Below, in pieces: positions 12,798 to 42,893 of a DNA stretch of 44,585 bases (its first letter is position 1; the number at the start of each line of letters is the position of its first letter). The notes under the pieces are model-generated. The model was not told where the DNA came from. It worked only from the letters and a program-made list of their open reading frames with translations, and searched no databases. The DNA comes from an archaeon (lineage in GTDB: Archaea > Thermoplasmatota > Thermoplasmata > JAJSAE01): positions 1-44,585 of the forward strand of contig JAJSAE010000027.1 of NCBI GenBank assembly GCA_024281315.1. Direction: 5' to 3'. The translations under genes were made by a program, and so were the position numbers.

Positions 12798-12947
12798 TTA
12801 TTTTAAGAAGAGCATCAGAATCATTGCATAACCGATTGCAGTCATGGCCAGCGACACGATTACAGCGATAATAAGCAGCCTTCTCCTATTCCTGAATATC
12901 TCTTCGTCCGGCGGCGGTGTATAATCGAGAATGTTATTTATGGTCAT
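12798..12947 (-). CDS. Small single-span membrane protein at the end of the ATP synthase operon (AhaG-like position)
   Basis: A 49-residue frame, ATG 12947 to TAA 12798: a short acidic/proline N-terminus (MTINNILDYTPPPDEEIF), a basic RNRRR and one hydrophobic helix (LLIIAVIVSLAMTAIGYAMILMLF split by few polar residues), ending in Lys. The start overlaps the end of the subunit D gene by 14 bp, so it belongs to the operon. Methanosarcina A-type ATPase operons end with a similarly placed small gene, ahaG, after ahaD; homology is not established here. It is too short for usual gene-calling cut-offs. Confidence 0.6.
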   Translation of the reverse strand: MTINNILDYTPPPDEEIFRNRRRLLIIAVIVSLAMTAIGYAMILMLFLK

Positions 12948-13575
12948 TGCGCTCTCCCTTGTCCTTTATCCTCTTCAGTCGAAATGTGTTCTCCCTCTCC
13001 ATCTCCTCCAGCCTCAATTCGATAAAACGCTCGGCCTCCTGCAGTTCCGGTGTGACCTTGAATTCCAGAGCGTTGACCCTTCTCTTGGTCTTCTCAATCT
13101 CATCCAGAAGTTTCTTCATGCTCGTCTCAATCTCCGCCGCTCTTATGATGCTTTCCACCAGCTCCTCATACGCCTTTGCCGCATCGTTTATATAAGGAGA
13201 GGTCCCGATAAGGCCGTACCCTCTCTCATCCACCGGCGTTTTTATACTGTTGGCCCGTATCTGGGGCACCACAACTCCCATAAGATTTCTGGACTCCAGT
13301 TCAATCTCCGGGTGCTTGGTCAGGGCGAAGGAGGCGGATTTAACGGAGAACGACCCTTCTACCGCGGATGCAATGGCAATGCTTTCCTGCGCCGCCGCGT
13401 ACTGCTTCGCAAGGGTGTCCCTCATCTCCCTTGCGCTGTCCAGAATGTTAAAGAATTCCAAAATAAGGCCATCTCTCTTCATTTTCAGGAGTTTATGGCC
13501 GCTTCTGGATATGGCAATCTTCTTCTTCACGCCGAGCAGTTCGGAGCGGGTCGGTTTTACATCTCTTACGGCCAT
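12934..13575 (-). CDS. atpD: A-type ATP synthase subunit D
   Basis: A 213-residue central-stalk subunit, equivalent to gamma of F-type enzymes, which rotates within the A3B3 head. The sequence has the characteristic N-terminal DVKPTRSELLGVKKKI and long antiparallel coiled coil ending in LEFKVTPELQEAERFIELRLEE-type helices. ATG 13575 is chosen: it yields the family length, has a GAGGG ribosome site, and lies 17 bp after the atpB stop. The longer frame from 13692 lies inside atpB. It overlaps the small membrane gene by 14 bp. Confidence 0.93.
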   Translation of the reverse strand: MAVRDVKPTRSELLGVKKKIAISRSGHKLLKMKRDGLILEFFNILDSAREMRDTLAKQYAAAQESIAIASAVEGSFSVKSASFALTKHPEIELESRNLMGVVVPQIRANSIKTPVDERGYGLIGTSPYINDAAKAYEELVESIIRAAEIETSMKKLLDEIEKTKRRVNALEFKVTPELQEAERFIELRLEEMERENTFRLKRIKDKGERNDHK

Positions 13576-13592
13576 TTTATCCCTCTGCTTCT

Positions 13593-14978
13593 TTACGCTG
13601 TCCTGGTCATGTGAGCAGGATGGTATTTCTCTATGAACTTGCGGTCTATTCTTGTCAGAGCCTCCTCCGGCAGATTGGTAACGAGTTCCCATGAGAGATT
13701 CAGGGTATCCTCTATGGAACGGCCCTCATTTACCCCCTGCCTGACAAATCTGTCCTCGAACAGGTCCGCAAATTCAAGGAATTTTCTGTCCCTCTCCGAA
13801 AGAGCGTCCTTTCCAACTATCGCCACAAGACCGCGCAGGTCCTTTCCCTCGGCATAGGCGGCATATAACTGGTCGGATATGGCTTTGTGGTCGTCTCTTG
13901 TCATGCCCAGCCCGATACCGGCGTTCATGAGTCTCGATAGGGAGGCGGAGACATTAATCGGCGGATAAATACCTCTCATATGAAGGCCTCTATCAGCAAC
14001 AATCTGACCTTCGGTAATATAAGCGCTCAGGTCTGGAATGGGATGGGTGATGTCGTCACCGGGCATGGATAGAATCGGCACCTGTGTTATGGAACCCTTC
14101 TTCCCCTTTATTTTGCCTGCCCTCTCATAAAGGGTTGCAAGGTCGGTGTACATATAACCCGGATAGCCTCTTCTGCCGGGAACCTCCTCTCTGGCCGCAC
14201 CGATCTGTCTCAATGCTTCGCAGTAGTTGGTCATATCAGTCAGAATAACAAGAACATGCATATCCAGTTCGAATGCAAGGTACTCGGCCGTGGTGAGCGC
14301 AAGCCTCGGAGTGATTATCCTCTCGATTGCCGCATCATCGGCAAGGTTAAGAAAGACAACCGCTCTCTGAAGTGCCCCGGTCCTCTCAAAGTCCTCCATA
14401 AAATGGTCCGCCTCCTCATGAGTGATGCCCATTGCCGCGAAGACCACGGCAAACTCCTCCTCCGTACCGGGCACCTTGGCCTGTCTGGCAATCTGGAGTG
14501 CAATGTCGTTGTGCGGGAGGCCGGAACCGGAGAATATCGGGAGTTTCTGCCCCCTCACCAGCGTATTCATGCCGTCTATCGTTGAGATGCCTGTCTGAAT
14601 GAACTCCTTGGGCGATTCTCTGGCATAGGGATTGATAGCCGCACCGGTAATATCCAGTTTTTTCTCAGATATAATATCGGGCCCTCCGTCAAGCGGGGTG
14701 CCGGCACCAGAAAGAATCCTGCCTAGCATGTTGCGAGAGACCGGCATTTTCAGTGTTTCACCCAGAAATCTCACACGAGACGCCCTATCAATACCGGCAG
14801 TTCCCTCGAATATCTGGACGGCAACGAGATCCTTCGATGTGTCCAGCACTTGTCCTCTCTTCTGCGAGCCATCGGGAAGAATAATGCTTACAAGTTCACC
14901 GTACATCACTGGCTCTGTCTTCTCTACAAACACCAGCGGGCCGGCGATTTCGGTAATGGTTCTGTAATCCTTCATCAT
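13593..14978 (-). CDS. atpB: A-type ATP synthase subunit B
   Basis: A 461-residue non-catalytic nucleotide-binding subunit of the A3B3 hexamer. It begins [24 protein letters not shown], typical of archaeal B subunits, and contains [21 protein letters not shown], and the [11 protein letters not shown] and [10 protein letters not shown] segments. It lacks a full Walker A, as expected of B. The first ATG (14978) overlaps the atpA stop (ATGA); a second in-frame ATG follows at once, and an AGGAGGAG ribosome site precedes both. Confidence 0.96.
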
Positions 14979-16711
14979 ATCTCCTCCTTCAATCTTGCCA
15001 TTTCGGCTGGGAGTTTGCGCATCATCATATCCAGAATAGTATCCACATTATCCTCGAACTTGGACCTTCCCAGCTCCGCCCTCATGGGTAGAGACGCAAT
15101 GCTCTGGAGCGGGACGCCCCTCTTCATGGCCTCGGCCGCAGAGTCGGCAAACACCTTTATGGCCTTCATCATGGCAAACTGCCGCTTCAACGAAGTGTAT
15201 GTATCGACGCTGTGGAACGCATTCTGCTGAAGGAAGAATTCCCGTATAAGTTTTGTAATCTCCAGGATTAACTGCTGGTCTTCCGGAAGCGCATCGGAGC
15301 CGACCAGCTGCACAATCTCCTGAAGTTCCGCCTCTTTTTGAAGGAGGCCCATGGCCCATCCCCTCAGGGATTCCCATTCCGGGTCCACATTCTCCTCATA
15401 CCAGCTCTCCAGAGTGCCGCTGTAAAGAGAATATGAGCTGAGCCAGTTGATTGCCGGAAAGTGCCGCCTCTCCCTGAGCTTTGTGTCAAGAGCCCAGAAA
15501 ACCTTCACGATTCTGAGGGTATTTTGAGTTACGGGCTCGCTGAAATCGCCCCCGGGCGGGGAGACCGCCCCGATAACAGTGATGGAGCCTCTGGAACCGT
15601 TAAAGCTGATTGTCCTGCCGGCTCTCTCGTAGAACTCGGATAGTTTTGATGCGAGATATGCGGGATAGCCCTCTTCTCCGGGCATCTCTTCCAGTCTGGA
15701 CGAAATTTCCCTCATGGCCTCGGCCCATCTGGAGGTGGAATCCGCCATGAGCGATACATCGTAGCCCATATCCCTGTAGTACTCCCCCAGCGTCATACCG
15801 GTATAAACCGATGCTTCCCTCGCAGCCACAGGCATGTTGGATGTGTTGGCAATGAGAATGGTTCTGTTCATGAGCGGTTCGCCGTTTCTCGGGTCTTTGA
15901 GTTCCGGGAACTCGGTGAGAACCTCGGTCATCTCGTTCCCCCTCTCTCCGCAGCCCACATATACAACTATGTCGGCATCGCTCCACTTGGCCAGCTGCTG
16001 CTGTGTAACCGTTTTACCCGTCCCGAAACCGCCGGGAATGGCCGCCGTTCCTCCTTTGGCCAGTGGAAAGAGGGTGTCCAGAATTCTCTGTCCCGTTATG
16101 AGGGGTATGTCCGGCTTCAACCTCTGCTTCGAAGGCCTGGGCTGTCTTACCGGCCATGTGTGCATGGGCTTCAGTTCCGTTCCGTCGTCCAGCCTAACTA
16201 TTGTTTCCTCCACGGTTTTTTCACCCGGAAACACCTCCGCAACGGTTCCGCTTATCTTCGGCGGCACCATGATTCTGTGCTCGAGTTCGTATTCCATTGT
16301 TGTGGCGATTACATCTCCGCCCCTCACCCTCTCGCCAACCTTGACTCCGATATGGATGGGCCACTTTCTCTCCCTGTCCAGAGCGTTTGCGGTAATCCCC
16401 CTCTCAATGAAATCTCCCTTCTTCTCCATAAGTACGGAGAGCGGCCTCTGGATGCCGTCGTAGATTCCGCTAAGGAGGCCGGGGCCCAGTTCCAGCACCA
16501 GCGGAGCCTTCGTATCAATTACTGGCTCACCCGGTTTAATACCCGTGGTATCCTCATAGACCTGTATAACGGACTTATCGCCCTCTATCTTGATTACCTC
16601 GCCCATCAACTTCTCATCCCCCACAAGAACCACATCGTACATTCTCGGGGAAATACCCGTAACCGTAACCACCGGACCGGCAACCCTGTATATCTCACCA
16701 TTCTCACTCAT
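14975..16711 (-). CDS. atpA: A-type ATP synthase catalytic subunit A
   Basis: A 578-residue catalytic subunit that hydrolyses or synthesises ATP at the A/B interfaces. Walker A is GGFGTGKT at 227-234 (archaeal A subunits usually have GPFGSGKT), followed by the [18 protein letters not shown] and [18 protein letters not shown] segments and the arginine-containing SYSLYSG region. The non-homologous insertion typical of A/V-type enzymes is present (about 115-190). It lies 20 bp after atpF and overlaps atpB by 4 bp. Confidence 0.96.
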
Positions 16712-16731: not shown

Positions 16732-17034
16732 TTATCCTGATTTGTAAAGGTCAACGCCTATGGCTCTCTTGACCTTCTCCCTCAATTCGTCCTCTTCTCC
16801 GCCTATCGTGATAAACACCGGATGTATGCTCTCCAGCATTCTTGCTCTCAAACCCTGCGGCAGATGTTTTATCTCCCCGGCATGGATGACGATAATCCCT
16901 ATTTTTTTGTTTGCCATCACATTCCGTATGGTTTCTTCCAAAATCTCCGAATTGGCCGCATATATGTTTCTGATTCCCGCAAGCCTGAAGCCAAGTACGA
17001 AGTCCTCACTGCCGACCGCTGCGATCTCCATCAT
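16732..17034 (-). CDS. atpF: A-type ATP synthase subunit F
   Basis: A 100-residue central-stalk subunit of the F family with the typical [14 protein letters not shown] motif and IGIIVIH and PVFITIGG strands. It binds subunit D and modulates ATPase activity. Its start overlaps the stop of atpC by 4 bp (ATGA), which shows that the reading frame of atpC reaches this point. Confidence 0.93.
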
Positions 17035-18089
17035 AATACCAGCAACTCCTTAATCATGCCCTCGGACAGGCCGTTGTCCTTCCCTTTCACGATTATTCGG
17101 ATAAAATCAACCTCCTTCTTCTTACGTATGATGAAGTCAATTACCGGCAGCACCGAAAGCGGATATGTGTGAGACAGCTTCTCCGATGTGCGCATGAGAA
17201 AACGGTCAAGTTCAATGGCTATGCGATGAGCGCCCTTATCTGTGGAAACGCCCCGCAGTTCATCTTTTAACCGCAACTTAATCTCTTCAAGCGCATCTTC
17301 CGCCCTCATCCATGAGATGTCATTCAGAGCTTCCATAGGTAGAATGGCACCCCCCCGGATCATGTAATTCATTATCTTCTCCGGTTTCATCCCTTCCAGT
17401 TTCAGTTTCATCAGATTCTTTGCGTTGACAACATCGATTTCTTTTCGAATGAAGAGACGATATATCTTCATGGGCTTCGACTCCCCTTTTATAGCAGCTA
17501 GAAGAGTAATGTAGTACTCCCGATCATAGAAATCCTCTATTTCCGATAGATCCCGTGAGTTTGCAAAACGCTCCATCACATCACTTGGCGGCACGACAAA
17601 ACCCTTCTGTTCCAGCAAATTTATAGCCAGTTCAGTGCTCTCCTCTGCGGCAAGTTTCTCCAAAAAATCCTCAGAAAACGAGCCGGCCGGGACGAGAGAT
17701 TAGACAATCACCTTCCGCGAGATTCCGTGCTCTACACCCCTGATGACAGTCTTTATGTTCCTTACATCCCAGATGTCCAGATACTCTTCCACCATGTGCT
17801 TGAGATCCCCCTTGGAAAAACTCAGAATATCTCTGTAGACTCTTGCAAGGTTCATGTTAAGAGCTTTTTCTATCAGGTCACTGCCAGAGTAATGCGAAGC
17901 CAGAGCCAGCATCTCCTCCCGATATGTGGTTTCACCGAGAAGGCGGGCAATCTGGGAAGGCTTCATCTTCATAAGTTTGGGATATGCCTCCGGACCGAGC
18001 AGGTTCTTCTTCTTTCCTTTAACCCTTGCGGTAACATAGGGGTAGTTGCCTCTATTCAGAGGGAGCCGCACAATATCGCTCAAAGGCAT
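17031..18089 (-). CDS. atpC: A-type ATP synthase subunit C, interrupted by an in-frame TAA
   Basis: The frame 18089-17031 has 353 codons, the normal length of subunit C, which couples the rotor ring to the central stalk. A single TAA at 17702-17700 splits it after GISRKVIV; the same frame continues SLVPAGSFSEDFLEKL, exactly the family pattern (LIPGG followed by an acidic helix). Everything else is intact: the start overlaps the end of atpE (TGATG) and the stop overlaps atpF (ATGA). The second half has no ATG nearby, only a TTG at 17663. Possible readings are a sequencing or assembly error, a real nonsense mutation, or readthrough. The residue expected at the stop is Glu or Lys. Confidence 0.85.
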
Positions 18090-18658
18090 CAGATTTCACC
18101 TTCGGGGAAGATTATGCGGGAGATTTCACCTGCATTTCTATCCCATATCTCGCTCACAATGTCGTCAAACCGCATGTCGAGAACCACCTAACCGTCGGTG
18201 CTTTCGGCGAGGAATCCCCCTATGCAATCTATGGGCTCGCCCACGCTGAAGCCGGGGATTCCGGAAAAGAATCGCTCTTCACCGGCACGGCAGTGAATTA
18301 TCCCGGCAGAGAGTTCGGCCAGCACCTTTTTGGTCATTGCGGAGTAGTACTTTCTTCTTGTATCTTCTGAGAGGGCGCTAAAATGCTCCAATACGGCGCT
18401 GTGGGCATAGTCCAGTATCTCTTTCCTTACTCTGAGAAACAGTTTCTTCAGCTCAACCTCCGTTCGTGCGGCCTCTCTCTGTTTCAGCTGGACAACAACT
18501 TCTTCCATATGCCTGCGGTAGTTCCCAAGGATTTCGTCCCTCTTCTTTCCGGCTGCACTCAGCATCTTCTGCCTCTCCGCATCTGCCTCGGCGAGTATGC
18601 GCTCCTCCTCTGCCTGACTCTCGGCGACTATCCGTTCCACTATCTTTTCAAGTCCCAT
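18089..18658 (-). CDS. atpE: A-type ATP synthase subunit E, interrupted by an in-frame TAG
   Basis: The frame 18658-18089 has 189 sense positions, the usual size of peripheral-stalk subunit E. The N-terminal half is the expected charged coiled coil (about 1-100). A TAG at 18190-18188 interrupts it after GGFLAESTDG; the frame continues VVLDMRFDDIVSEIWDRN and ends in a TGA that shares one base with the atpC ATG. The extension is the conserved E C-terminus (family pattern: DG, basic residue, V, then NTFE-like helix), so the short 156-residue version would lack the part that holds the A3B3 head. An amber codon is also in the next gene's pattern (TAA in atpC). Pyrrolysine would be unprecedented here. 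Confidence 0.85.
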
Positions 18659-18675: not shown

Positions 18676-18903
18676 TTACATCTTTCCCATTAGCAGGAAA
18701 GCAATCAGGAATCCGAAGATAATAATGGTTTCCGGAATGACCGTAAGAATCATTGCCTTACCAAATATCTTCTCGTTCTCGGCCAGCGCGCCCACCGCAG
18801 CGGAACCGATGTCCTTCTCGGCCCATGCAGTCCCGAGTGCCGCCAGTCCGATCGCTATTCCAGCCGCCATCGCTATTGCTCCTGCGTCATTTAACAATAC
18901 CAT
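18676..18903 (-). CDS. atpK: A-type ATP synthase subunit K (c-ring)
   Basis: A 75-residue proteolipid with two transmembrane helices (about 7-28 and 49-72) and a polar loop (AEKDIGSAAVGALAENEK). The ion-binding carboxylate is Glu58 in IPETIIIFG of helix 2. It forms the rotating ring in the membrane. A single hairpin per chain, not the duplicated form seen in some archaea. Whether it carries H+ or Na+ cannot be told with confidence from the motif. Confidence 0.92.
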   Translation of the reverse strand: MVLLNDAGAIAMAAGIAIGLAALGTAWAEKDIGSAAVGALAENEKIFGKAMILTVIPETIIIFGFLIAFLLMGKM

Positions 18904-18906
18904 TTT

Positions 18907-20841
18907 TCATGCCTCCTTTGTGTATTTCCTTCTATACCTCAGGGGATTGAATTTCTCCCCGCCGCCTATGTAGAACTTCGAGAAGAATTCCACATAATGC
19001 AACCTTAATGTCTGAATGAGCGGCCCCATAAGACCGAGGGCCAGATTGAGAGTGTGCCCCATTATTAGCACGATTACACCGATTGCTATGCCTATTCCAC
19101 CGCCTTCTATGGCGGGCAGGGCCATGTTTTCGTTGAATGCCATGGCGATTCCTACGGAGGACAGGCCGATGGCGTAAATTCTTGTGTATGAGAGGAGATT
19201 GCTGGCCAGTCCGGGAAGTTCCAGCACGCTGTTAATCCCCTCCACCAAATAGGTCATAACTATTCCAACCACCAGAAGTATAATTCCGGTGAGAATCTGT
19301 GGGCTTGTGAATGACAGTTCAGTCCCGTGCACGAGAGCAGGAAGGGCCGCAAAGGAAAAGAGAACAAAGCCCACAAGAATGAGAATCCATCCTCCTTTTT
19401 CAAGGATCGCCTTTTTAAGGCCGTGTTCCGCCTTTACCGTAAAGAATCCCATGACATAGCCGATGAACAGGTGAGCGATTCCGATATAGACACAGAGCAT
19501 TAGCATAGCACCCACCGTCTCCGGGCTGGCCCTGTGCACAGGGAACTCTATCCCCATAATAGAGAATTCAACATGATGCCCCAGAATCTCAAAGCCAAAG
19601 AACTCGTCAAATAACAGGCCAAATATTACAGTTGATATGCCAGAGTAGAATAGGATTTTGTTGAGACCGGGCGCACCTCCGCCCATTCCGAGTTTCTGCA
19701 TCAGTTTCGTGAATCCGCCGGATAAGACGAGGGCAAGGATTGCAATCCCGTAGCCCATATCTCCCAGCATGAGTCCGTAGAACAGAGGGAATGTAAAGAA
19801 CATGAGGAATGTGGGGTCCACCTCATCGTACTTCGGGAGGGAGAACATCTCCATGAGCATCTCCATGGGCCGGGCAGGTTTCGGGTTCTTCTGCTTGATG
19901 GGCGGCCCCTCTGTTTTTGAGTCCCAATCAAGTTCTATTAGCTCCGCAATTCCGGTTTTTATGCCGGACACTCCCTCCTGCAACCTTTTCATGGAGGAGG
20001 CGGGGATCCATGCATCCACGATGAAAGAGTGATGGCCGGTTCCGAATCTCAGAGGGGTTTCGGCCCTGTTTGCTTCTATGGACAGTTCTTCAAGCGAGGC
20101 AATTACAAAGAGGCCATGTCTCTGCCTGAGAGTGTCAATTCTGCTGTTTATTCCGGCGAGGCGTTTTTCAAGGTCGCCAATCTCCGAATTGAGGCGATGT
20201 ATGGCCACAAGCGGTTTTTCGCTTATTTTTAGGAGAGGAATCTCCGAGAAACCTGCTCTTCCTAGTATTTCTGCCGCCTCCCTTTCTGCTCTTTTATCCA
20301 CAAAAAAGACACTGGCCTCCCCTCTTATAATATCATAATCAACACCGAGAACGGAAAACTCCGCCTCAGGATCGGACTTTACATGCCCCACAAATACCGC
20401 CAGCGAATCGTAGTCCCTGAGAAGTGCGAGCGGAAGGTCTATGTGCTTCAGGGGATGAAGTGCGGACAGCTCAGCATTCTTCTCGGCCAGAAGGTTTTTC
20501 ACCTCCTTTCTCGCGTGGGCCTCCGAACTGATTTCCAGCTCCAGATTGGATATCGCCGCATCTATTTCCGCCTGAATTTTTTTAACGGGAATCTTCTCCA
20601 CCACGGGCATATCCTCTTCATCCATGTCAAGGTTTTGAGAGATACTCATCATATTCAGAAGGCGGCGAGATGCTCTTTCTGCCTCTGGAAGGGGCGTTCC
20701 TATATCAAACACATCATCGCTTTCTTTGTAATCAATAATGTGAAAGGAGCCGGTCCTGTATAAAAAATCTACTGTTTCCGGCAGGGCGGGCATTGTGCCG
20801 AGAAGGAGCACACGCTTCATCCTTTCAGTTTTGAACATCAT
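18907..20841 (-). CDS. atpI: A-type ATP synthase subunit I (a-subunit)
   Basis: A 644-residue membrane stator subunit. The N-terminal cytosolic half begins MMFKTERMKRVLLLG and contains long coiled coils (about 80-130 and 210-245); the C-terminal half (about 340-630) has about seven to eight transmembrane helices including the family region PKYDEVDPTFLMFFTFPLFYG and GMMLGDMGYG-like LMLGDMGYG, and the Arg-containing LLSYTRIYAIGLSS that faces the c-ring carboxylate. The start at 20841 lies within the end of atpH (17-bp overlap), matching the usual N-terminus. Confidence 0.94.
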   Translation of the reverse strand: MMFKTERMKRVLLLGTMPALPETVDFLYRTGSFHIIDYKESDDVFDIGTPLPEAERASRRLLNMMSISQNLDMDEEDMPVVEKIPVKKIQAEIDAAISNLELEISSEAHARKEVKNLLAEKNAELSALHPLKHIDLPLALLRDYDSLAVFVGHVKSDPEAEFSVLGVDYDIIRGEASVFFVDKRAEREAAEILGRAGFSEIPLLKISEKPLVAIHRLNSEIGDLEKRLAGINSRIDTLRQRHGLFVIASLEELSIEANRAETPLRFGTGHHSFIVDAWIPASSMKRLQEGVSGIKTGIAELIELDWDSKTEGPPIKQKNPKPARPMEMLMEMFSLPKYDEVDPTFLMFFTFPLFYGLMLGDMGYGIAILALVLSGGFTKLMQKLGMGGGAPGLNKILFYSGISTVIFGLLFDEFFGFEILGHHVEFSIMGIEFPVHRASPETVGAMLMLCVYIGIAHLFIGYVMGFFTVKAEHGLKKAILEKGGWILILVGFVLFSFAALPALVHGTELSFTSPQILTGIILLVVGIVMTYLVEGINSVLELPGLASNLLSYTRIYAIGLSSVGIAMAFNENMALPAIEGGGIGIAIGVIVLIMGHTLNLALGLMGPLIQTLRLHYVEFFSKFYIGGGEKFNPLRYRRKYTKEA

Positions 20842-21157
20842 ATTCCCTCATAAATATTCCGGAAACGCTTTCGATGACCTGGGACTTTCGTACGGCAGCC
20901 TCTTCCTTCTGTGCGGCGGCCATTCTATTCGCCTCGGCCAGCCTCGCAGCTCTAATCTCTTCCTCTTCTCGACGCGCGGCATCGAGAGCGTCTTTTATCA
21001 TCCTGCGACCCTCCGTTTCAGCCAATGCTACTATGGATGAGGCCTCTCTTGCGGCCTTCTCCTTCACGGACTCGGCCTGCTGTTCTGCCCTTCCCCGTCT
21101 GGCCCGTGCTTCGGCCTCGGCAGCCTTTATCTTCATCAGTACGATCTCTCTTTCCAT
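20825..21157 (-). CDS. atpH: A-type ATP synthase subunit H (peripheral stalk)
   Basis: A 110-residue, almost wholly helical, Ala/Glu/Arg-rich coiled coil (MEREIVLMKIKAAEAEARARR...) ending in a short SGIFMREYD segment. It pairs with subunit E in the right-handed coiled-coil peripheral stalk. It is the first gene of the operon, preceded by a TATA box 30 bp upstream. Confidence 0.88.
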   Translation of the reverse strand: MEREIVLMKIKAAEAEARARRGRAEQQAESVKEKAAREASSIVALAETEGRRMIKDALDAARREEEEIRAARLAEANRMAAAQKEEAAVRKSQVIESVSGIFMREYDVQN

Positions 21158-40268: not shown

Positions 40269-40793
40269 TTATTCAATCCTCCCATACGGGACTAGGGAGC
40301 TATTACTAGAAGGGATTGACTCCGATAAGTACTCTTGAATTTGCTCGGCGACTTCACGACTCACTGGGCAATAATCTTTCTGACTTGAAAAATGCAAGGA
40401 ATAGTCCGGAACCTCCCTTATTCTCATCCCATTAAACCGCCCCAAATCACCGATGGGTTTTAGATAAGTTATGTCAGTCCAATGGATAAACAGCTCTTTT
40501 CCACCATACGAAATGGCATAGAAGCCTTTTTCTGTGTATTTTATGGTCCCAAAAATGGACCTAATAAAAAGGAACATTACTATAATCCTGAAAAGAAAGA
40601 TAGGAATAAAAACCAAGAGAGTCCATGCTAATAAAGATAAGAAATCTATTTCAACAGCCATAGATAGAATCAAACAACTCAAGAACCACAACAATGGAAT
40701 AAATATTATGTCAAAGCAACGCCATCTTCGATAGAAGGACAGGAGATTTTTGGAGAGATTGTTTTTCTGCTCGAATATTATTTTATCGCCCAT
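40269..40793 (-). CDS. Membrane protein with PH-like C-terminal domain
   Basis: A 174-residue protein starting MGDKIIFEQKN (ATG 40793, AAAGGTG ribosome site; the ATG at 40811 lacks one). It has two transmembrane helices (about 28-48, 55-78) and a beta-rich domain (KYTEKGFYAISYGGKELFIHW, then DITYLKP) resembling bacterial PH domains. Same layout as the gene upstream (40850-41502). The function is unknown. Confidence 0.6.
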   Translation of the reverse strand: MGDKIIFEQKNNLSKNLLSFYRRWRCFDIIFIPLLWFLSCLILSMAVEIDFLSLLAWTLLVFIPIFLFRIIVMFLFIRSIFGTIKYTEKGFYAISYGGKELFIHWTDITYLKPIGDLGRFNGMRIREVPDYSLHFSSQKDYCPVSREVAEQIQEYLSESIPSSNSSLVPYGRIE

Positions 40794-40849
40794 TTGAACA
40801 CCTTTCAACATATTCAGTTATTGGCCTTGAATAGCCGTATTGCCTATTT

Positions 40850-41502
40850 TTACCTCTTTCTATTGTTTTTTTCAGCCTTGAAAGCGCCATGTCCATCCAT
40901 CTGGGGTTCAGAACTCTTGCACGGGCCTCTTACTTCACTTTTTGTACGCATGTGGTAGTGTTCGTTCTTTCTGTAAAAAACATCAACTCCATTACATACG
41001 AGGCAATCGCTGAATTTCTCCGCATCAATAACAAATTCCATGTTCCATTCGTATGTTTCAAGCCCCTTCCCATTGCGTGAGGGGTTTATGGTTTTTATCA
41101 ATATTCTCCTACCCGCACAGCCCCAGCACCTGAAATCTTCGCCAACAACGACGGAATCTATTTCTGACAACTCGAACCTTTTCGCACCGTTCCCAAAGAA
41201 CTCAAGCGCCTTGCCATCCACCCTGACACCGATTTTCTCTGTTCTTAGAATCTTTCTTTCCTAAAAAAAGAGATGGAGATGTATAATACAAATCCACCGC
41301 CAAAAGTCGCTAAAATTGTAATAGGTAATATCTTCCTTCCTCCCTCCACGCCGAGACAGATAATAGGGATAAGACCCCCAAGTATAGTTATAAAAGCCGC
41401 AACGGTTCCGCCTATCAAAAACCTACGGCTTTCTTTTTCTATGTAATCCCGATAGTACTCCTTCTTCTCAGTTGTATCATACACGCAATCTTCATCGAAC
41501 AC
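40850..41502 (-). pseudogene. Membrane protein with PH-like domain, frameshifted
   Basis: Two open frames (41502-41245 and, in another frame, to 40850) join into one protein if a single base is missing in the GGAAAGAAAG stretch near 41257-41266. The merged product (about 217 residues) has two transmembrane helices, then RTEKIGVRVDGKALEFFGNG and IDSVVVGED, the same PH-like layout as the gene downstream. The frame 1 end (FRKERF, TAA) and the second frame (ERKILRTEKIG) overlap in this purine run. The 653-bp length becomes divisible by three on adding one base. It starts at GTG 41502, 25-30 bp from a TATA box at 41524-41531. This may be a true pseudogene or a base-call error. Confidence 0.65.
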
Positions 41503-41523
41503 ATAAAGATATGTAATGTATGA

Positions 41524-41531
41524 TATTTAAA
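41524..41531 (-). promoter_or_regulatory. TATA box of the PH-like gene pair
   Basis: Minus-strand TTTAAATA, about 25 bp from GTG 41502. Confidence 0.5.
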
Positions 41532-41591
41532 ACTTTGTACCCGTGAGGAAAACTATTTAGAATACAGAGCATTGTATGGCCGAGTGATACC

Positions 41592-42893
41592 ATGTTTGAA
41601 CCGGAAATAGAGAGAATGAAGACCGACCAGATAAAGAAACTGCAGGAAGAACGCTTCATACGGCAGGTTCGCCACGCCTACGAGAATGTGCCGATGTACA
41701 AGAAGAGATTCAGAGATAAGGGGATAACCCCAGACGACATCAGAACGCTGGACGATGCCTACAAGATACCACTTACCGTAAAGGACGACCTCAGGGACCA
41801 CTACCCATACGGAATACTGGCCGTGCCGCTCCGGGATGTGGTGGAGATGCACGCATCCTCCGGAACAACCGGAATTCCCACTGTTGTCACATACACGGAA
41901 AGAGATATGAGGACATGGAGAAGGCTCATGGCCAGAACCTATGCCGCCGCCGGTGTTACATCCGAAGATATCGTTCAGAACGCCTACGGTTACGGCCTTT
42001 TCACAGGAGGCCTCGGCTTCCACTACGGAATTCAGGAACTCGGCGCAATGGGAGTTCCCACCGCAACCGGCAACACAAAGAGGCAGCTGAGAATGATGAA
42101 AGACATGAAGACCACCGTGCTGGCCGCTACGCCGTCATACGCCCTCTTTCTCGGGGAGGCCGCAAAGGCCGAGGGATACGACCCTCTGAATGACTTCAAC
42201 CTGAGAATCGGAATGTTCGGTGCGGAGCCGTGGAGCGAGGAGGCAAGGAAGAAGATTCAGGATACATTCGGCCTGAGAGCTCACGATGTCTACGGCATGA
42301 GCGAACTGTACGGGCCGGGCGTGGCTGTGGAATGCGAGCACCAGAACGGCCTGCATATATGGGCGGATGAATTCCTTGTGGAGGTAATAGACCCGGACAC
42401 CGGTGAGGTTCTCGAAGAGGGAAAGAAAGGGGAACTTGTATTTACCATGCTGACAAGGGAGGCCATGCCGCTGCTGAGATACAGGACAAAGGACCTTGCG
42501 GTCATCGAGTGGGAGGAGTGCGAGTGCGGAAGGTACCACCCCAGAATCATGAGAATCAAGGGGAGAGCGGACGATATGCTCATTGTGGGAGGCGTAAATG
42601 TCTTCCCGAGCCAGATCGAGCATGTGCTCATGAACATCGAGGAGCTGGCAGGCGAGTTCTTCCAGATTGTTCTCGAAGGGGACATACTGGACAGGCTGTA
42701 TGTTAAGGCCGAGGTGGAACCCAAGTTCTTCAAGTCCGATAAGTACGACGCAGCAAAGCTGAAGAAGAAGGTGGAGGACGAGCTTCAGGCCGTGCTGACG
42801 CTGAGGGCAAGGGTGGAACTTCTGGCCCCGGGAAGCCTGCCGAGGACAGAGGGGAAGGCCAAGCATGTGGTGGACCTCAGGCACAAGACGTGA
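41592..42893 (+). CDS. paaK: Phenylacetate-CoA ligase
   Basis: A 433-residue AMP-forming acyl-CoA ligase of the PaaK type. The ATP-binding P-loop is SSGTTGIPTVVTYTERD; the later core MSELYGPGVAVECEHQNGLH and the C-terminal hinge RIKGRADDMLIVGGVNVFPSQIEHVL are family signatures. It activates phenylacetate or a related aryl acid (such as indoleacetate) to the CoA ester; in peptide-using archaea it handles products of aromatic amino acids. No partner genes for ring cleavage or IorAB are nearby. Confidence 0.9.
   Translation: MFEPEIERMKTDQIKKLQEERFIRQVRHAYENVPMYKKRFRDKGITPDDIRTLDDAYKIPLTVKDDLRDHYPYGILAVPLRDVVEMHASSGTTGIPTVVTYTERDMRTWRRLMARTYAAAGVTSEDIVQNAYGYGLFTGGLGFHYGIQELGAMGVPTATGNTKRQLRMMKDMKTTVLAATPSYALFLGEAAKAEGYDPLNDFNLRIGMFGAEPWSEEARKKIQDTFGLRAHDVYGMSELYGPGVAVECEHQNGLHIWADEFLVEVIDPDTGEVLEEGKKGELVFTMLTREAMPLLRYRTKDLAVIEWEECECGRYHPRIMRIKGRADDMLIVGGVNVFPSQIEHVLMNIEELAGEFFQIVLEGDILDRLYVKAEVEPKFFKSDKYDAAKLKKKVEDELQAVLTLRARVELLAPGSLPRTEGKAKHVVDLRHKT

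Follow-up and report, generated by a model that had tools for sequence, protein, structure and literature searches.

The window, that is the whole stretch of 44,585 nucleotides analysed here, is the entire contig C11 of a draft metagenome-assembled genome (MAG; G000 in Table 1; 1.75 Mb in 107 contigs, 91.45% complete) of a member of the Thermoplasmata close to the Methanomassiliicoccales. By comparison of AtpA, its nearest named relative is a Methanomassiliicoccales archaeon (genome G041, 75% identity); the relatives compared belong to the same class as the draft genome and none is closer. The window carries an ATP synthase operon with the gene order H-I-K-E-C-F-A-B-D. This order, together with the family profiles, identifies the E and C genes as those of an A-type ATP synthase. 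These two adjacent genes, atpE and atpC, each contain one in-frame stop codon.

Table 1. The ATP synthase operon of the window and the lone in-frame stop codons of the draft genome G000. Operon positions are those of the window; the other sites are given as contig:position.
Feature	Position	Strand	Stop codon	Remarks
Probable atpD	12934..13692	-	ends TAA	intact; D assigned by homologue match
atpB	13593..14978	-	ends TAA	intact
atpA	14975..16711	-	ends TGA	intact
atpF	16732..17034	-	ends TAA	intact
atpC (subunit C/AC39)	17031..18089	-	ends TGA; one in-frame TAA	352 residues, read through
TAA in atpC, codon 130	17700..17702	-	in-frame TAA	column mostly Glu (GAG/GAA) in relatives
atpE (A-type ATP synthase subunit E)	18089..18658	-	ends TGA; one in-frame TAG	189 residues, read through
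TAG in atpE, codon 157	18188..18190	-	in-frame TAG	sense codons at this column in relatives
atpK-like small membrane subunit	18677..18904 (approximate limits)	-	ends TAA	intact; by position
atpI (V_ATPase_I)	18907..20841	-	ends TGA	intact
ORF in atpH position	20825..21157	-	ends TGA	intact; assigned by position only
ATPase/TPR protein	C60:49118		in-frame TAG	
PAPS-reductase-like protein, PRK13795 family	C5:7008		in-frame TAG	
purQ	C21:15116		in-frame TAG	
oppD-type ABC ATPase	C33:9972		in-frame TAG	Glu in close relatives
DNA-methylase-like protein	C32:11750		in-frame TAG	reading continuity only
metG	C51:2144		in-frame TAG	in C-terminal tRNA-binding part; sole metG of the assembly
Conserved gene adjoining aRF1	C44:1922		in-frame TAG	
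Cys/Met PLP-enzyme gene	C73:612		in-frame TAG	named from its own sequence
DUF4129 protein	C15:9944		in-frame TAA	
FeoA-domain protein	C72:15346		in-frame TAA	
DUF4143 ATPase-like remnant	C60:2887		in-frame TAA	probably a genuine pseudogene; no Pfam match

The earlier note on this DNA had described both stops as lying within frames that continue beyond them, and the reading frames bear this out. The overlaps of atpE with atpC (TGATG) and of atpC with atpF (ATGA) are intact, as it had also stated. Its claim that the sequence following each stop is conserved holds for both genes, on different grounds. The read-through atpC aligns with PF01992 along 338 of its 339 positions (E 3.6e-62). The PF01991 match of the read-through atpE (E 1.7e-9) covers the N-terminal part of the protein and ends before the TAG, and the continuity of atpE beyond its stop is therefore taken from the identity of all 189 residues to the two nearest relatives (49% to G041 and 44% to G032) and not from this match. 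Each of these genes is the sole match to its family in the assembly. An in-frame TTG preceded by GAGG lies at position 17663 of the window, after the atpC stop, and a 210-residue C-terminal fragment of AtpC could in principle start there.

The comparison with homologues, which the earlier note had proposed as a check, shows that the stops are peculiar to this assembly. No stop occupies the corresponding column in any of 56 aligned atpE homologues or 78 aligned atpC homologues, and among the matches listed from a draw of 200 Thermoplasmata genomes the atpC described here is the only one with an internal stop. The atpE column is variable in the relatives (T, R, S, N, E, K and others), with N in G041 and R (CGA) in G032. 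The commonest residue at the atpC column is Glu, encoded by GAG or GAA, and G032, the nearest relative for which the codon is shown, has GAA; a single change, GAA to TAA, is therefore sufficient to create the atpC stop.

The operon bears no other mark of decay: frameshifts, lost starts and relaxed divergence were looked for in it and not found. The divergence of the E and C subunits from those of the relatives is in line with that of A, F and I. AtpC has 46% identity to that of LCB019-061, as compared with 42-45% for G041 and G032, and AtpE of the draft genome and G041 are 49% identical, as compared with 46% for G041 and G032. By identity to the relatives, neither gene shows accelerated divergence or relaxed constraint. 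The RNA around the two stops has no unusual fold (z-scores of -0.5 to 0.6), and an exact-DNA search found no second copy of the two sites among viral contigs.

Stop codons of the same kind are present in many other genes of the assembly. A coding-potential screen of 1.08 Mb (62% of the genome), followed by homology searches and family models with the candidates sorted by eye, gave 13 lone in-frame stops (9 TAG, 4 TAA and no TGA), within frames that are elsewhere intact or conserved, on 10 contigs, that of the window included; 11 of them lie outside atpE and atpC. A six-frame homology screen without a coding filter gave mostly antisense noise and was set aside. The strongest support comes from purQ, metG, oppD, the neighbour of aRF1, the C73 gene, atpE and atpC, in which homologues align across the stop. 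In five genes, namely those for the TPR and PAPS-reductase-like proteins, purQ, metG and oppD, the stop falls inside the match to an NCBIfam or Pfam model, and the DUF4129, FeoA and methylase cases are supported by the unbroken frame. The residues found in relatives at the stop columns are E, K, Q, R, D, N and S, mostly one substitution away from TAG or TAA. The sites share no flanking motif that could be found. No frameshifts occur in the 156 kb of the draft genome that is covered by homologues. The interruption is thus not specific to the ATP synthase but genome-wide, and the emphasis of the earlier note on two stops within one essential operon turns out to mislead, with at least 11 other genes carrying lone stops.

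Several candidates were rejected in the course of this sorting. A "frameshift" flagged on C44 is an overlap of inositol-phosphatase-like and NAD-kinase-like genes, which are fused in the homologue. The TGA candidate at C60:18284 was judged to be an ordinary gene end, after which a separate acetyltransferase-like gene appears to come next, and those at C14:5683, C28:17278 and C22:26024 were likewise taken as ordinary gene ends, with no homology evidence across the stop.

Two control genomes were treated in the same way. No lone stops were found in their homologue-covered parts, and the coding-potential screen gave one or two candidates in 400 kb of G028, a complete relative, and none in 190 kb of G041. 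These 0-2 candidates in 590 kb compare with about 7 expected at the rate of the draft genome (P of 2 or fewer, 0.03), a comparison of eye-sorted candidates with two small controls that is indicative only; with this proviso, the draft genome carries an excess of pure substitution-type interruptions. A TAA in the frame of a bacterioferritin-like gene is found at position 323174 of G028, an otherwise complete genome.

These observations suggest that the two atp stops are probably single-base consensus errors of the MAG, among others scattered through the draft. This explanation is favoured because the lone stops are scattered over unrelated genes throughout the genome, frameshifts are absent, sense codons occupy these positions in the homologues, and no machinery for decoding the stops has been found. 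One substitution in atpE would have created the TAG and one in atpC the TAA, in each case out of a sense codon; for atpC this codon would most simply be GAA (Glu). In the living organism both genes are probably open and full-length subunits are made. Their status as errors, and not as real alleles, is our inference, as are the codons that originally occupied the two sites. If the errors are random, their implied rate is about 3.3e-4 per base; short reads would presumably give nonsense codons without frameshifts at such a rate of some 3 errors per 10 kb, which could fit a thinly covered assembly. Two of the scattered errors would then have happened to strike neighbouring genes. The atpE and atpC stops lie within 488 bp of each other (p ~0.07 for randomly placed events), and this closeness may reflect locally thin coverage.

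One observation fits the error explanation poorly, namely the missing TGA. Uniform substitution is expected to give 45% TAG, 32% TAA and 22% TGA, and the lack of TGA among 12-13 stops has a p of ~0.04-0.05. The sorting by eye may have been stricter on TGA, the commonest terminator. The missing TGA keeps alive, as a minor hypothesis, the suppression of UAG and UAA that is discussed below.

Interrupted coding sequences arising from sequencing errors have been documented in Mycobacterium smegmatis (PMC1852416). Like the stops described here, they are isolated breaks in conserved genes of varied function in one assembly; in contrast to them, the present cases are only substitutions to TAG or TAA, and they are found in a metagenome assembly. 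The in-frame stops are most likely an artefact of a draft genome and not a new genetic code. Errors being the most likely cause, the case calls for caution with MAGs: before recoding is proposed, single stops, even a pair within the same essential operon, need to be compared with the number of such stops in the whole genome. The earlier note had left errors, inactivation and recoding side by side. Of these, errors now have the strongest support; inactivation of the operon is disfavoured by stops in unrelated single-copy genes and by normal divergence, and recoding by the lack of machinery.

It is conceivable, but unlikely, that the substitutions are real in the sequenced cells, as nonsense alleles that are polymorphic or recently fixed, so that in a sub-population the genes are either inactive or retain some function as fragments. 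Very young alleles would be expected to lack frameshifts and other decay, and a C-terminal piece of AtpC might re-initiate at the TTG mentioned above. Belinky et al. 2021 (PMC7918605) reported that in-frame stops are widespread in prokaryotic genes and that most of them are short-lived, on the time scale of polymorphism. As in that study, the stops here are single and lie in otherwise functional-looking genes. The stops of that study were, however, kept only if common to orthologues, and its set holds all three stop types, whereas the present stops occur in no relative and lack TGA. To carry about a dozen such alleles together, in single-copy genes like metG, purQ, atpE and atpC, would burden the cells heavily. 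True decay, moreover, usually adds frameshifts, none of which are seen, and atpE and atpC show no relaxed divergence.

A third explanation, which we regard as improbable, is that a suppressor tRNA with the anticodon UUA or CUA, absent from the assembly, efficiently reads UAG and UAA, and that the genes work in their present form. It would account for all 13 stops being TAG or TAA, for the mostly variable polar positions at which they occur and for the conservation of the parts downstream. The assembly lacks about 9% of the genome, and several expected tRNAs, e.g. Glu-UUC, Lys-UUU, Tyr and Trp, were not recovered in it. Against this, the suppressor tRNA for which the earlier note had advised a search has not come to light: none of the 38 assigned tRNAs (from 40 Rfam matches, with 9% of the genome missing) has a CTA, TTA or TCA anticodon, and default ARAGORN with introns allowed gave no stop-reading tRNA in the screened stretches of the draft genome. 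Two of the 40 matches were identified by visual inspection alone, as Met/Ile CAT and Ser GCT; an intron-bearing CAT tRNA on C43 and a degenerate tRNA-Ser(GCT)-like copy on C24 were inspected in this way. With relaxed settings ARAGORN reports 'Pyl' and 'Stop' tRNAs by the dozen within coding sequence, all of low quality, and these were taken as noise.

The use of stop codons also speaks against such suppression. Among 589 long genes, 269 end in TGA, 180 in TAA and 140 in TAG, so that TAG and TAA together terminate 320, atpF, atpB and atpD among them. The next backup stop follows at a median of 20-22 codons after genes ended by TAG or TAA, as compared with 14.5 codons after those ended by TGA, unlike the situation in G028. 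There, in the first 400 kb, TAG ends 6 of 291 genes, 5 of which have another stop within 10 codons; G028 seems to avoid TAG, in the way that one would expect of a constitutive pyrrolysine user or an amber-suppressing lineage. The statement of the earlier note that TAG and TAA are normal stops in the window is correct (the CDF and LarA genes end in TAG; atpF, atpB and atpD in TAA), and its exclusion of a global reassignment gains support from the terminator counts and the lack of closer backup stops. The gene for aRF1 is present and open, the stop sites have no common flanking motif, and the RNA folds at the atp stops are ordinary.

In ciliate nuclear codes UAR is reassigned to Glu or Gln. The present case resembles these codes in having TAG and TAA in frame and TGA not, and differs from them in that half of the genes are still terminated by TAG or TAA and that the search for a cognate tRNA found none. 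A dual-meaning code of this kind without pyrrolysine is more doubtful still: an unrecovered UUA-anticodon tRNA would insert an ordinary polar amino acid at UAG and UAA, though not at UGA, at ~20 sites, while the two codons would go on terminating half of the genes. Read-through of the stops would point to UAR codons with two meanings in an archaeon that lacks pyrrolysine, and this would be new if true.

The possibility that TAG encodes pyrrolysine is very remote and close to refuted. The nearest named relatives are classed as Methanomassiliicoccales, an order with pyrrolysine decoding in which, as here, TAG occurs in frame in ordinary genes (PMC4153887), and 9 of the 13 stops are TAG. In 'Ca. 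M. alvus', 16 proteins outside the methylamine methyltransferases are predicted to contain pyrrolysine, and TAG makes up 1.6% of the terminators (PMC4153887). In the draft genome, by contrast, TAG commonly terminates genes (140 of 589), and the TAA codons of atpC, the DUF4129 gene and the FeoA-domain gene would be left unexplained. Models of PylS and PylD find nothing over the cut-off in this 91%-complete genome, and each finds exactly one control genome over it. That the operon is a decaying pseudo-operon, as two nonsense codons in adjacent genes might suggest, is hardly credible with the other subunit genes all open, the overlaps intact, like stops in many unrelated genes and no accelerated divergence of E and C.

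Some minor features were encountered during the screens. A degenerate second tRNA-Ser(GCT)-like sequence at C24:1473-1555 (30 bits), not called by ARAGORN, is perhaps a tRNA-derived integration scar. A remnant of a transposase-like helix-turn-helix gene at about 6254-6356 of C31, with TAA and TGA in frame, is an ordinary decayed mobile element. Contig C45 carries a CRISPR array at about 40300-41700; its repeats resemble ATTTCAATCCCTCATAGGTCTTATTCTTTC, and its spacers are about 36-40 bases long.
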